Part shown: piece by piece, positions 14,330-30,857 of the stretch
Numbering within the stretch: position 1 is the stretch's first letter
How the letters are laid out: every line of letters begins with the position of its first letter
DNA from: Phycisphaerales bacterium
GTDB lineage: Bacteria; Planctomycetota; Phycisphaerae; Phycisphaerales; UBA1924
Length of the DNA: 64,000 nt
Assembly: GCA_020846975.1 (NCBI GenBank)
Contig: JADLCX010000041.1
Location: 62,001-126,000 of the forward strand
Reading direction: 5' to 3'
Made by a program: the position numbers and the translations under genes
The notes under the pieces: model-generated
The model's input: the letters and a program-made list of their open reading frames with translations, nothing else
Database searches by the model: none
Told to the model about the DNA's origin: nothing

Positions 14330-15493
14330 GTGTGCACACCGGTGTTCTCGACACTCGACCGCCACATCGCCCGACAGTACCTCTTCAACGTGATCGCGTT
14401 GATGGTGGTGCTGTTCTCGTTCGTGGTCATGGTCGATGTCGCGCTCAACATCGGCCGGTTCCTGAACCGCGCGGCCGAACTGCACCGCGATCAGCCGCTG
14501 GGCGCGCTCCGCAAGACCGTGGTGACGGCGGCGCTGGTGGTCGATATCTGGTGGCCGCGGCTTCTGCAACTGTTCAACTACACGATCGGGCTGGGGCTGA
14601 TCGGCGCGATGGGGTTCACGTTCACGCAGCTCGTGCGTCATCGCGAGATCGTGGCGATGCTGGCGGGCGGGATCAGCCTGTTCCGGGCCATCCGTCCGGT
14701 TCTGCTGGTGGCCGCGCTGATGATGGGTGTTCGGACGATCAACCAGGAGCTGGTGATCGCCAACCCGCGCATCGCGCCGTTGCTCGGGCGTGACCCATCG
14801 GAGGCCGGCAAGCGAGAGTTGGGCGAGTTCCAGGTTCCGCCCACGCCCGACGGGCGCAGGCAGGTGCTCTTCGCCCGCAAGTTTGATCCACGCACGGCGA
14901 CGATGCACGGTGTGGAACTGTGGCGACGCAACGACAAGGGCGTGGCGACCAGCCGCGTCAGCGCCGATGAGGCACGCTGGATTGCCGGAGGCGCCAACCG
15001 CGGGTGGTCGCTGACCAACGCGACGGTCACGCGGCTGGACCTTGGCCGTCCCGGCGAAGGCGGGGCCCGCGCGGGCGAGCCTGCGCCGTCCATGCTCGAT
15101 ACGGACATCGAACCATCAACACTGCTGTTCAACCGTTTCGCATCGTTCAGCCAGAGCCTGTCGTGGGCGCAGATAGGTCGCATGCTCGAGAGTCCGCAGC
15201 TCAAGCCGGAGATGCGCGAGAAGCTGCAGCGCATCCGCTGGGGCCGAATCTCAACGATGCTGTCGGCGATCCTGTCGCTGCTCATCACCATGCCGTTCTT
15301 CCTGATGCGCGAGCCGAAGAACATGCTGGTGCAGTCGCTCAAGTGCGCCCCGGTGGGGATCGTCTCGCTCATGGGCGGCGTGCTGCTCGCGGCCATGCCC
15401 GTGCCGGGATTGCCCGCGGGGTTCGCGGTGTTTCTGCCGGTCGTGATTTTGCTTCCGGTGGCGATCGCGGTACTGAGCACGGTGCGGACGTAA
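14330..15493 (+). CDS. LptF/LptG-family permease, standard length
   Basis: A 387-residue permease of the usual LptF/LptG size. Hydrophobic segments lie at residues 18-38, 65-85 and 100-125, followed by a periplasmic domain and three membrane segments at the end (STMLSAILSLLITMPFFLMRE and two more). An LQSLKCAP-like cytoplasmic loop is as in other members. The start is GTG at 14330 or 14342; neither has a strong Shine-Dalgarno. It probably forms the heterodimer partner of the long form at 9753. The stop codon is the base of a very long hairpin (15491-15603). Confidence 0.85.
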   Translation: MCTPVFSTLDRHIARQYLFNVIALMVVLFSFVVMVDVALNIGRFLNRAAELHRDQPLGALRKTVVTAALVVDIWWPRLLQLFNYTIGLGLIGAMGFTFTQLVRHREIVAMLAGGISLFRAIRPVLLVAALMMGVRTINQELVIANPRIAPLLGRDPSEAGKRELGEFQVPPTPDGRRQVLFARKFDPRTATMHGVELWRRNDKGVATSRVSADEARWIAGGANRGWSLTNATVTRLDLGRPGEGGARAGEPAPSMLDTDIEPSTLLFNRFASFSQSLSWAQIGRMLESPQLKPEMREKLQRIRWGRISTMLSAILSLLITMPFFLMREPKNMLVQSLKCAPVGIVSLMGGVLLAAMPVPGLPAGFAVFLPVVILLPVAIAVLSTVRT

Positions 15494-15603
15494 AGGCAAA
15501 GCGAAAAGCGAACAACGAACAGCGAACAGCCAGACGGGACCAAAGCAGCTTGTCCCTCTCCGGCTGTTCGTTGTTCGCTGTTCGTTGTTCGGTGTTGCCT
15601 TTG
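15491..15603. repeat. Long imperfect hairpin made of GAACARC heptamers
   Basis: The left arm (15491-15531) is built from tandem GAACAAC/GAACAGC heptamers and pairs with the right arm (15562-15603) over about 38 positions with only a few mismatches and one bulge. An inner GGGAC/GTCCC stem (15536-15540 with 15552-15556) continues it. The lptG-like stop codon TAA is the base of the stem, and the next gene starts 33 bases after it. There is no U-tract. It may act as a 3' stabilising structure or be a non-autonomous repeat element. Confidence 0.8.
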
Positions 15604-15635
15604 TTTCCTCCCTCTGCTGTGGTCGTCTGAATACC

Positions 15636-28196: not shown

Positions 28197-29852
28197 ATGC
28201 ACAGCCTGTTCGACGAGCGCCGCTACCTGATCCCGTTCCGTTCGGGGCTGCTGCCGCAGATCTTCACCGACACGTTGGTCATCGGCGCGGGTGTGGGCGG
28301 CCTTCGGGCCGCGATCGCCGCCGCGGCGAGCGGGGGCGAGACCATCGTCCTGTGCAAGACCTCGGTGGAGGAGTCCAACACCGCCTGGGCGCAGGGCGGG
28401 ATCGCCACGGTCGTCGATGAGAAGTCCGGCGACTCGTTCGCCTCGCACATCAAGGACACGCTCGATGCGGGCGCCGGGCTGTGCGATGAGCCGGCGGTGC
28501 GCAGCATCGTCGAGGCCGGCCCGGCCCGCATCAACGAGCTCGTCAACTGGGGCATGCGGTTCGATCTGGGTCCGAGCGGCAGGGTCTCGCTGGGGCAGGA
28601 GGGCGCGCACACGCACGCGCGCATCCTGCACGCCGACGGCGACGCCACCGGGCGGGAGCTCGTCCGGTGTCTGCACGAGCGGGCCCGCGCCACGCCGGGT
28701 CTGCGTCTGTTCAGCAACTGCTTCGCGCTCGACCTGATCACGCCCAGCAACGAGCCGGGAGGGGGCGCGCCGGTCATGGGCGCCATCACCCATCACACCA
28801 AGTACGGCCTCCAGATGATCTGGGCCAAGACCACCATCCTCGCCAGCGGCGGCGCGGGCGTGGTCTTCCGCGAGACCACCAACCCGCGCATCGCCACCGC
28901 CGACGGGCTGGCGATGGCCTACCGCGCCGGCGCGGCGGTGCAGGACCTGGCGTTCATCCAGTTCCACCCGACCACGCTCTACCTCGCAGGCCGCCCGCGC
29001 AGCCTGATCACCGAGGCCGTCCGCGGCGAGGGTGCGCACCTGCTCGACCAGGCCGGGCACCGCTTCATGGTCGAGGCCCACCCGCTGGCCGAGCTCGCGC
29101 CGCGCGACGCCGTCAGCCGCGCGATCCTCCGACGCATCGCCTCGCACGGGGGCACGCACGTGTTCCTCGATGTCCGCCACCTCGGGGAGTTCGACCGGCG
29201 CTTCCCCGGGATCGCCGCGCTGCTCGCCGATGTCGGGCTCGATCCGGCCACGGACCTCGTCCCCGTCAACCCGGCGATGCACCACTTCATCGGCGGTGTC
29301 GTGACCGATCTCGAAGGCCGGACCAGCCTGCCCGGCCTGCTCGCCGTCGGCGAGGTCGCGAGCACGGGCCTGCACGGGGCCAACCGGCTGGCGAGCAACT
29401 CGCTGCTGGAGGGCCTGGTGGTCGGCGAGGCCGCCGGCCGTCTCGCCGCGGCGAACGCCGCCAGGACCCTGCCCGCGCCCGTGCCGATCATCTCCGACAT
29501 CCGGCCGAGCGACCACGGCGAGATCGACCTGGCCGATGTCAAGAGTTCGCTCCGCAGCGCGATGTGGCGCAACGCCGGCATCGAGCGCAGCGGCCCGCGC
29601 CTGGCCGATGCCATCGACATGATCGACTTCTGGGCCCGCTACACGCTGGACAAGATCTTCGACGGCCCGGAGGGGTGGCAGACGCAGAACATGCTCCTGG
29701 CCGCCGCGCTCATCGCCCGCAGCGCGGCGTGGCGGACCGAGAGCCGCGGGGGCCACTGGCGGTCGGACTTCCCGGAACCGCGGGAGGAGTGCCGCGTACA
29801 CGATCGGTGGGCAAGGGGGGCGGGCAACGTGGTGGAGGTGGGCGTGCGATGA
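28197..29852 (+). CDS. nadB: L-aspartate oxidase
   Basis: Flavoenzyme oxidising L-aspartate to iminoaspartate, the first step of de novo NAD synthesis. The FAD site is VIGAGVGGLRAAIAAA, with TAWAQGGIA and the family signatures HTHARILHADGDATG and HGANRLASNSLLEGLVVG. The length of 551 residues is typical. nadA and nadC are not in the window. The stop codon overlaps the start of the downstream lipoprotein (ATGA). Confidence 0.95.
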   Translation: MHSLFDERRYLIPFRSGLLPQIFTDTLVIGAGVGGLRAAIAAAASGGETIVLCKTSVEESNTAWAQGGIATVVDEKSGDSFASHIKDTLDAGAGLCDEPAVRSIVEAGPARINELVNWGMRFDLGPSGRVSLGQEGAHTHARILHADGDATGRELVRCLHERARATPGLRLFSNCFALDLITPSNEPGGGAPVMGAITHHTKYGLQMIWAKTTILASGGAGVVFRETTNPRIATADGLAMAYRAGAAVQDLAFIQFHPTTLYLAGRPRSLITEAVRGEGAHLLDQAGHRFMVEAHPLAELAPRDAVSRAILRRIASHGGTHVFLDVRHLGEFDRRFPGIAALLADVGLDPATDLVPVNPAMHHFIGGVVTDLEGRTSLPGLLAVGEVASTGLHGANRLASNSLLEGLVVGEAAGRLAAANAARTLPAPVPIISDIRPSDHGEIDLADVKSSLRSAMWRNAGIERSGPRLADAIDMIDFWARYTLDKIFDGPEGWQTQNMLLAAALIARSAAWRTESRGGHWRSDFPEPREECRVHDRWARGAGNVVEVGVR

Positions 29853-30472
29853 AGATGGCACAGCAGCAAATCAGCAGATCAGCAGAGCAGCAAATGAGAA
29901 GGTTTGGCTTGCTGCTTTGCTGTTTTTCCGCTTTGCTGCTTTCGCTCCCCGCCTGCCGGCCCGAAGAGAAGATCATCCACTACAAGCCCTTCTTCGCCAA
30001 CGTCGAGGGCGCCAAGTTCGGCGGCCAGGGCCCGGTCAACGCCGACCGCGGCTACGTGGACCCGACCTTCACCGCCGAGAACAAGCTGGTCATCGAGAAC
30101 CCCGACGGCTCGAAGGTGCTCATCGCCAAGAGCCCGCAGCAGATGATCTCGCACATGGTCCGCTGCCTCGATGAGGATGACGACAAGCTCTTCATCGAGC
30201 AGGTGCTGAGCCAGAAGACCAAGGACCACTACAAGGACATGCACAAGGACCCGATGGAGTTGGTCGAGAAACTCAAGGCCAACCGCAAGGAACTCGCCAA
30301 GACCCTCGGCCGCATGCCCCTCGGCGAGCACTCACCCACCGTCATCCTCGAACAGCCCGGCGACAAGACCTGGATCATCAAGGTCACGGGCGCTGCGGCG
30401 AAGGACCTGCAGTACACGCGGCTGTGGACGCGGCTGGAGGAGGGGAACTGGCGGTTCATGTGGCTGGACTGA
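29849..30472 (+). CDS. Lipoprotein with repeat-encoded leader
   Basis: 207 residues if started at ATG 29849, which overlaps the nadB stop and has GGAGG 10 bases upstream. A second ATG at 29894 is possible. The signal peptide (FGLLLCCFSALLLSLPAC) is encoded by the right arm of a hairpin made of GCAGCAAA-type repeats (29860-29942), so the leader and the repeat are the same DNA. The mature part (RPEEKIIHYKPFFANVEGAKF and later DEDDDKLFIEQVLSQKTKDHY) is acidic and lacks a recognised domain. Function unknown. Confidence 0.7.
   Translation: MKMAQQQISRSAEQQMRRFGLLLCCFSALLLSLPACRPEEKIIHYKPFFANVEGAKFGGQGPVNADRGYVDPTFTAENKLVIENPDGSKVLIAKSPQQMISHMVRCLDEDDDKLFIEQVLSQKTKDHYKDMHKDPMELVEKLKANRKELAKTLGRMPLGEHSPTVILEQPGDKTWIIKVTGAAAKDLQYTRLWTRLEEGNWRFMWLD
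29860..29942. repeat. Imperfect hairpin of AGCAGCAAA repeats at a lipoprotein start
   Basis: Left arm 29860-29893 and right arm 29909-29942 pair over about 30 positions with roughly six mismatches. Both arms are made of repeated AGCAGCAAA / TTTGCTGCT units. The 15-base loop (29894-29908) contains an in-frame ATG of the overlapping lipoprotein gene. The architecture parallels the element at 31428-31560. Confidence 0.8.
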
Positions 30473-30857
30473 CGGGCGGCTAAGGCGAGCCGCCGCATTG
30501 TCAAACGTCCGCCGGCGTTATCTCGCTGGAATCGCGGCGTGTGCGCGGCGACCACCGAACACCCGCCAGCTACAAGGTCTTTGGTCCGGCCGGACCAACT
30601 CCTGGTCCACGTGGAATTGTTGTTGGTCCGGGCGGTCCAGGCGTTGGTCCGCGCGGAACTGTCGTTGGTCCGGCCGACACAAGAGTTGGTCCGGGCGACA
30701 CAAGAGTTGGTCCGGCCGGACCAGCAACAATGCCGGTCGGCACAGCACTTGGTTCGGGCGGACCAACGACCGTGCGCGGCCGTGATGTCGCGCAACTTCT
30801 GCGCATGTTCCGTCACCACTGCGCGGCTGCGCCGCGAGTGGTGGCACCCGAACGTCT
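30473..30857. other. Intergenic region between convergent lipoprotein genes
   Basis: A gap of 384 bases without a credible gene. Its middle half is a 21-bp tandem array (30576-30768). Open frames across it on both strands encode only Gly-Pro-type heptads, as expected from a repeat whose length is divisible by three. No terminator with a T-tract is seen. Confidence 0.75.
30576..30768. repeat. 21-bp tandem array with palindromic core, about nine copies
   Basis: Read on the minus strand, GGACCAAC (or a close variant) recurs every 21 bases: six successive units of exactly 21 bases can be counted, plus more degenerate ones at both ends. Several junctions form the palindrome TTGGTCCGGCCGGACCAA. 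The variable 10-13 bases between cores also repeat partly (CTTGTGTCG occurs twice). The period equals two helical turns, and any translation is heptad-periodic. Confidence 0.85.

Follow-up and report, generated by a model that had tools for sequence, protein, structure and literature searches.

The window analysed here is a stretch of 64,000 nucleotides from a Phycisphaerales bacterium, in which positions 14330 to 15493 of the plus strand encode a permease of the LptF/LptG family (PF03739 match, E = 1e-28), referred to below as LptG. Its TAA stop codon (15491 to 15493) lies immediately 5′ of a hairpin that starts at the next base, which agrees with the initial annotation, where the permease stop was placed at the base of a heptamer stem. 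The left arm (15494 to about 15532, plus strand) is a tandem array of GAACARC-type heptamers in the order AGGCAAAGC-GAAAAGC-GAACAAC-GAACAGC-GAACAGC. The interior (15533 to 15559, plus strand) contains an inner stem of 5 bp formed by GGGAC (15536 to 15540) and GTCCC (15552 to 15556), and the right arm (about 15560 to 15600, minus strand) is built of inverted GAACARC heptamers. These limits were read from the sequence and from arm comparison, with folding used for the interior and word matches for the right arm. With their surroundings included, the arms share identical columns at 51 of the 67 aligned. The double GAACARC word, allowing up to two mismatches, occurs nine times in the window, against 1.48 expected, and seven of the nine lie within this hairpin. 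The RNA fold of 15471 to 15623 reaches -77.3 kcal/mol, compared with a mean of -47.02 (standard deviation 3.95, z = -7.67) for 200 dinucleotide-preserving shuffles, none of which was as good, so the heptamer hairpin behind the permease stop is real. No Rfam family matched it at gathering score, the single listed match being far beneath, and a known Rfam family was accordingly rejected.

The LptG locus was matched in 60 genomes, from which 30 loci were taken, one being that of the source genome itself. Among the other 29, in two of which (L239 and L246) the gene end was oddly placed by our script, neither a homologue of the next gene nor a comparable hairpin was found (scores of 7 to 16, against 28.5 here). 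Since the next gene is in place in none of the 29 relatives, an empty LptG allele for comparison is absent. In one relative, G009, an array of another word, GGCAATA/GGGAATG, follows the stop codon that the script took as the end of LptG (L239, from 1241).

The search of the genome for GAACARC clusters that the initial annotation had proposed, on the expectation that similar copies at gene ends would indicate a repeat family, gave a clear answer. In the source assembly (4.2 Mb, 102 contigs), the pattern CGAACARCGAACARC with at most one mismatch has 54 matches (27 per strand), against one for the reversed control. According to a hand count, these correspond to 18 places, one of which (C42:31827) lies within a coding frame with no other units and may be due to chance. 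Ten copies are two-armed, that on contig C42 having short arms and one on C59 enclosing a gene. In the nine copies whose arms were compared, most arms proceed from outer (A)AGGCAACA-like to inner GAACAGCCGGA-like units, and the interiors vary, those of the C22 and C58 copies being similar by eye. Similarity between the two arms of one copy is no greater than that between arms of different copies (mean 23.9 within, 24.3 between), and the idea that pairing is maintained inside each copy was thus rejected; since the arms are common across copies and pairing within them is not better, copying of a unit fits better than upkeep of pairing site by site. The stop codon of a neighbouring frame abuts at least one end of six of the ten two-armed copies (those of the window, C22, C58, C59, C67 and C101), these frames having been read by eye and the LptG frame alone checked by homology.

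Copies of the family are also found in frame within protein-coding genes, namely those of ParB (C59:2750, about 25 residues), MnmG (C42:57884) and valyl-tRNA synthetase (C72:29844), where the structurally solved homologues 7bnk, 2zxh and 1gax, respectively, align on both sides of the insert. The ParB and valyl-tRNA synthetase copies consist of a single arm. Nearly all six reading frames of the GAACARC arms are open, and insertions within genes would therefore be tolerable. In the valyl-tRNA synthetase insert (L070, 4844 to 4930), the GAACAGC array is directly followed by an array of another word, CTTCGTCA. At three loci (L059 at about 4993, L065 at about 5424 and L072 at about 5093), GAACARC copies stand directly 3′ of frames ending in KMAA, which are perhaps paralogues; target preference and joint duplication are both candidate explanations.

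The enclosed gene on contig C59 identifies the protein associated with the family, which was absent from the initial annotation. At C59:70888-71347, a frame of 123 residues lies between GAACARC arms, and its product matches PF05635 (23S_rRNA_IVP) with 55.3 bits, against a curated cut-off of 33.8, as well as PDB entry 2rld (E = 1.3e-11). To our knowledge, no settled function has been assigned to PF05635 genes, here called IVP genes. The source genome contains five of them. By eye, the one on C54 is flanked by inverted arrays of the octamer AGCAAATC and the one on C60 by inverted GTGACAAG arrays; the other two of the five (C58:286949 and C76:19493) have no clear arms. Both octamers recur without a gene. 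AGCAAATC has 12 genome matches (control, 1) and forms a second gene-less hairpin in the window at 29858 to 29943, recognised from inverted repeat I6, word matches and the sequence. GTGACAAG has 30 matches (control, 0) and is gene-less at C54:132708-132860 and C58:347615-347743. The AGCAAATC hairpin of the window stands at the start of a frame at 29849 to 30472 (ATG at 29849), in which part of the right arm reads LLLCCFSALLLSLPAC, resembling a lipoprotein signal peptide, and the element may here have become coding sequence. Further along, at 30582 to 30773, there are several imperfect inverted repeats built on a motif of the GTTGGTCCGG type, which may represent repetitive coding DNA.

Within the class, PF05635 is present in 124 of the 150 genomes scanned, and among relatives in 40 of 61, the source genome being counted in both. 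From these we assembled a class set of 102 IVP loci, comprising the five of the source genome, the 30 best-scoring, 27 further ones and 40 picked by hand among weaker rows; at least seven fragmentary or interrupted rows were left out, most mid-scoring rows stayed outside the sample, and one locus (L139) was dropped for its short flanks, leaving 101. At each locus, the upstream flank was aligned against the reverse complement of the downstream flank. The median score was 23.5 for the flanks of the same locus, compared with 10.5 across loci and 10.5 in direct orientation, and in 65 loci the own partner obtained the top rank among 101, in 84 a place among the top five. At 79 of the 101 loci the inverted flanks scored above 16.5, the 95th percentile for 198 displaced controls, the remaining 22 not rising above control level. 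The best tandem period over the shuffle threshold was 7 in 46 loci, 14 in 17 and 8 in 26, with other periods in five and none in seven, so that 89 of 101 have a period of 7/14 or 8, against 8 of 198 displaced controls with period 7 or 8. Of the 198 controls, 56 passed the tandem threshold, mostly with periods of 6, 9 and 12, as in coding DNA.

The period follows the protein to some extent. On a tree of 99 IVP proteins (88 labelled; L139, L141 and L159 left out), built by a quick method from few columns, the change between periods 7 and 8 takes 16 steps, compared with a mean of 22.8 after shuffling of the labels and with none of 500 shuffles as low, a clustering that is partly fed by the relatedness of the genomes. 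Across the IVP-flanking arrays, 209 in number, 162 distinct words were counted.

A second set, here called the named set, came from a scan of named genomes and was formed by the best 80 of 590 confirmed stretches, of which 79 were usable (L321 was left out for short flanks) and two, L266 and L273, apparently coincide with L125 and L136 of the class set. These best 80 of 590 include Bacteroidota, Acidobacteria, Nitrospirae, KSB1, Elusimicrobia, Clostridia, Alphaproteobacteria, bacteria of candidate phyla and one Methanophagales archaeon. Within the same best 80 of 590, the inverted flanks scored above 13.5, the 95th percentile for 150 displaced controls, in 71 of 79 cases, the own partner ranked first in 44 and among the top five in 68, and the best period was 7/14 in 45 and 8 in 26, together 71 of 79; the displaced controls had period 7/14 in 10 of 150 and period 8 in none. 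Read on the sense strand of the gene, upstream arrays of this set (best 80 of 590) have a fixed AG in 35 of 43 cases and a fixed CT in 5. The corresponding figures in the class set are 29 and 6 of 64, and because GA is there as frequent as AG, a constant AG core is clear only in the named set. An rRNA-gene location of the elements was ruled out for the 15 IVP loci scanned, which gave no Rfam match and thus no rRNA.

All five IVP words that we searched for in their own genomes (the three of the source genome, AGTGGAC and AGTAGGGC) have such copies, which outnumber the IVP copy wherever they were counted. AGTGGAC, the word of an IVP locus of G006 (C20:45542-46020), has 48 matches there (control, 0), at that locus and at many other places, some of them as close plus/minus pairs; AGTAGGGC has 37 matches in Mesorhizobium sangaii (L289; control, 0), at the IVP locus and, by hand count, six further places. 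In a small sample of four genomes, inverted arrays of period 7 or 8 numbered 0 and 1 per 400 kb in the two without PF05635, against 4 and 7 in the two with it. AATGACC, the word of an IVP locus of G044 (L216), was seen in both of the PF05635-bearing 400-kb samples. Four GAACAGC matches were obtained in G006, yet the word is absent from its three IVP loci that were viewed.

Filled and empty alleles were found on plasmids. A search with one IVP query gave matches in 31 plasmid records, mainly from cyanobacteria, and in no phage record. In plasmid C of Trichormus variabilis, an element lies between two genes and is absent from the Aulosira and Fremyella plasmids that were fetched. The empty alleles have a single copy of GTAAT, which spans the TAA stop, and the Trichormus insert has one on either side, a clear 5-bp duplication. 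The end of a TraM-domain gene is followed in Nostoc edaphicum and Nostoc C052 by an IVP gene between GGGAACA arrays and in Nostoc ATCC 53789 by a gene-less hairpin built from related words; in C057 both are absent. Related operons on two plasmids of Nostoc ATCC 53789 are interrupted by IVP elements at different junctions, and neither plasmid has the element of the other; at one junction TTCTA flanks both sides and may be partly arm, which makes the duplication ambiguous. In Aulosira plasmid 2, the element lies in the end of a frame, which is shortened, and the junction is blurred, as are those at cas6-cas4 of Anabaena 90, cas10-cmr3 of Picosynechococcus PCC 7003 and a Calothrix integrase. A clear target duplication is thus seen at one site, the junctions elsewhere being ambiguous or blurred. 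The elements at three plasmid sites are 79 to 83% identical, and one of them, used as a query, matched 47 places in 26 plasmid records, six of these with at least 80% of the query. Taken together, the filled and empty plasmid alleles show insertion, often at stop codons. The Anabaena 90 and Picosynechococcus PCC 7003 cases place IVP elements in CRISPR operons (L446, L448 and L456), and the cas6-cas4 junction of Dolichospermum carries a different palindromic insert.

Outer ends were examined in 115 IVP elements whose arms are clear. Of the 230 ends, 60 have, no more than 10 bases away, the stop codon of a long frame directed at the element, compared with 13 of 658 outward-displaced controls, and part of this excess is that of any intergenic insertion, since the controls lie mostly within genes. 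Where operons are tight, an insertion is harmless solely at the stop codon.

We consider it likely that the LptG hairpin belongs, as a gene-less member, to a dispersed family of mobile elements linked to IVP, with IVP presumably acting on it in trans. IVP genes co-occur with the word arrays and share their words with gene-less hairpins, these hairpins are dispersed, and insertion is documented by the plasmid alleles; from these observations we infer that IVP moves the hairpins. Weighing against this reading are the two IVP genes of the source genome without clear arms, the 22 class loci at control level, the lack of an empty LptG allele in the 29 relatives, the equal match of arms within and between copies, the single clear target duplication, the AG core that is clear in the named set alone and, against its simplest form, the GAACAGC copies of G006. 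The mobile palindrome, one of the possibilities raised in the initial annotation, is hence the one favoured by the 18 places in the genome, the three copies inside coding genes and the filled and empty plasmid alleles of related elements. In a complete element, a single small PF05635 gene lies between inverted arms, both of which are short tandem arrays of a word of 7 or 8 bases. IVP, a small helical-bundle protein, would bind its cognate hairpin as DNA or as RNA and would be needed in trans for copying or insertion of the hairpin, the chemistry of insertion being supplied, in this model, by a host enzyme. Binding of nucleic acid is plausible because PF05635 is described as resembling, in sequence and structure, Avd, the accessory protein of diversity-generating retroelements (PMC10053308). 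The LptG copy would have inserted at the stop codon, whereby the gene was probably spared, and a role as terminator or in mRNA protection, if any, would be secondary.

Another enzyme might instead spread the word hairpins, IVP being cargo that often lands or survives there. Such a course of events would suit the excess of gene-less over IVP copies wherever counted and the IVP genes without arms, as well as the protein itself, for which we know of no catalytic site. We nevertheless hold it to be unlikely: the link between IVP and arrays spans many phyla (as seen in the best 80 of 590 named stretches), the array period clusters with the IVP lineage, and a passenger would have no need of a word of its own at each locus.

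The hairpin could also be a REP doublet (REPIN) spread by a RAYT (Y1) transposase, a system with a similar layout of a single gene and dispersed hairpins, and PF01797 has seven matches in the source genome, of which six pass the cut-off. Flanks were long enough for the array check at five of the seven loci and too short at two. Neither the GAACARC double word nor strong arrays of period 7 or 8 were detected at these five, which led us to reject RAYT as the source of the GAACARC word, and the gene inside the GAACARC copy encodes IVP, with no RAYT. We therefore judge a REPIN very improbable. Two PF01797 (Y1) genes, L355 and L356, have long inverted flanks that lack tandem words and may be ordinary REPs.

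That the hairpins are retained at gene ends for an RNA function, as terminators or protectors of the mRNA 3′ end, would agree with the very stable fold (z of -7.67 as given above) and with the stop codons that abut six of the ten two-armed copies. Between 15494 and 15600, no terminator-like site with a G+C-rich stem followed by a T run was found, the sole site of the examined stretch (15414 to 15428; shuffled mean, 0.6) lying within LptG; the initial annotation was right that this is not a standard terminator. Given also the copies within the genes of ParB, MnmG and valyl-tRNA synthetase and the absence of the LptG-end hairpin from the 29 relatives scanned, we would credit such a retained RNA function with very little likelihood, although co-option of the hairpin may have occurred. 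A local accident of slippage or recombination, to which the initial annotation would have been left if no other copy in the genome and no conserved structure in relatives were found, is compatible with the hairpin's lack of conservation at the LptG locus of the relatives scanned, but it is refuted by the other copies at 18 genome places, against one match for the reversed control.

Several known systems resemble the IVP-linked family. In 23S rRNA, intervening sequences (IVS) that contain an S23p/IVP frame have complementary borders forming a stem-loop and are termed selfish genetic elements in PMC4990558. As in these, the C59 copy encodes an IVP protein, the window copy being gene-less; unlike them, the elements considered here lie in or between protein genes (the window copy follows a permease gene), their arms consist of word arrays and they have dispersed copies without the gene. 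Excision from the RNA by RNase III is a further trait of the 23S rRNA IVS. REPINs are described as dispersed hairpins of two inverted repeats, with a cognate gene near each type and gene-less copies served in trans (PMC3116915). The ten two-armed copies and 18 places found here are likewise dispersed hairpins of two inverted repeats, so that by analogy the hairpin may work somewhat like the REPIN-RAYT system, with the difference that the gene is IVP, without a Y1 transposase, and the arms are tandem arrays of 7 or 8 bases. The hairpin is a member of neither group, since a RAYT link (at five PF01797 loci) and an rRNA location (for the window copy and 15 IVP loci) were both looked for and not found.

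Rickettsia palindromic elements are reported as short palindromic in-frame inserts in protein genes (PMC10969869), a position shared by three copies of our family and not by that of the window; compared by their description there, they differ in genomes and words. The TAACTGA heptamer repeats of Beggiatoaceae, Cyanobacteria and Bacteroidetes are presented in PMC4679880 as abundant, mostly intergenic direct repeats with a suggested regulatory role. They share with the arrays studied here the heptamer unit, the abundance, the mostly intergenic position and the occurrence in several phyla and differ in their description as direct repeats with such a role; a term search of the available text of that paper returned none of S23, intervening and four-helix. 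Like MITEs, the short gene-less GAACARC copies have terminal inverted repeats. The target-site duplication expected of MITEs is clear at one plasmid site of a relative (GTAAT) and ambiguous at another, and as to the ends of a parent element, the gene inside matching arms is that of IVP, the transposase search having covered Y1.

The LptG hairpin and its fuller, IVP-enclosing relatives across bacteria point to an overlooked class of mobile DNA; among the literature matches listed, a link between IVP genes and word arrays was not found. In a broader reading, which we put forward tentatively, IVP proteins may define a widespread mobile class without transposase, in which a helical-bundle protein recognises an arbitrary, self-consistent hairpin of 7- or 8-base words that is copied with or without the gene, often at stop codons, the words changing freely and the period following the protein lineage, and of which the 23S rRNA IVS would be the one long-known case. 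How IVP-linked elements move without a known transposase is the question that this raises, and the filled and empty pairs provide material for it in culturable cyanobacteria. Through their tie to word hairpins dispersed in genomes, PF05635 genes, which are very common in this class, acquire a role that can be tested, and the tie may account for many heptamer repeats and hairpins.
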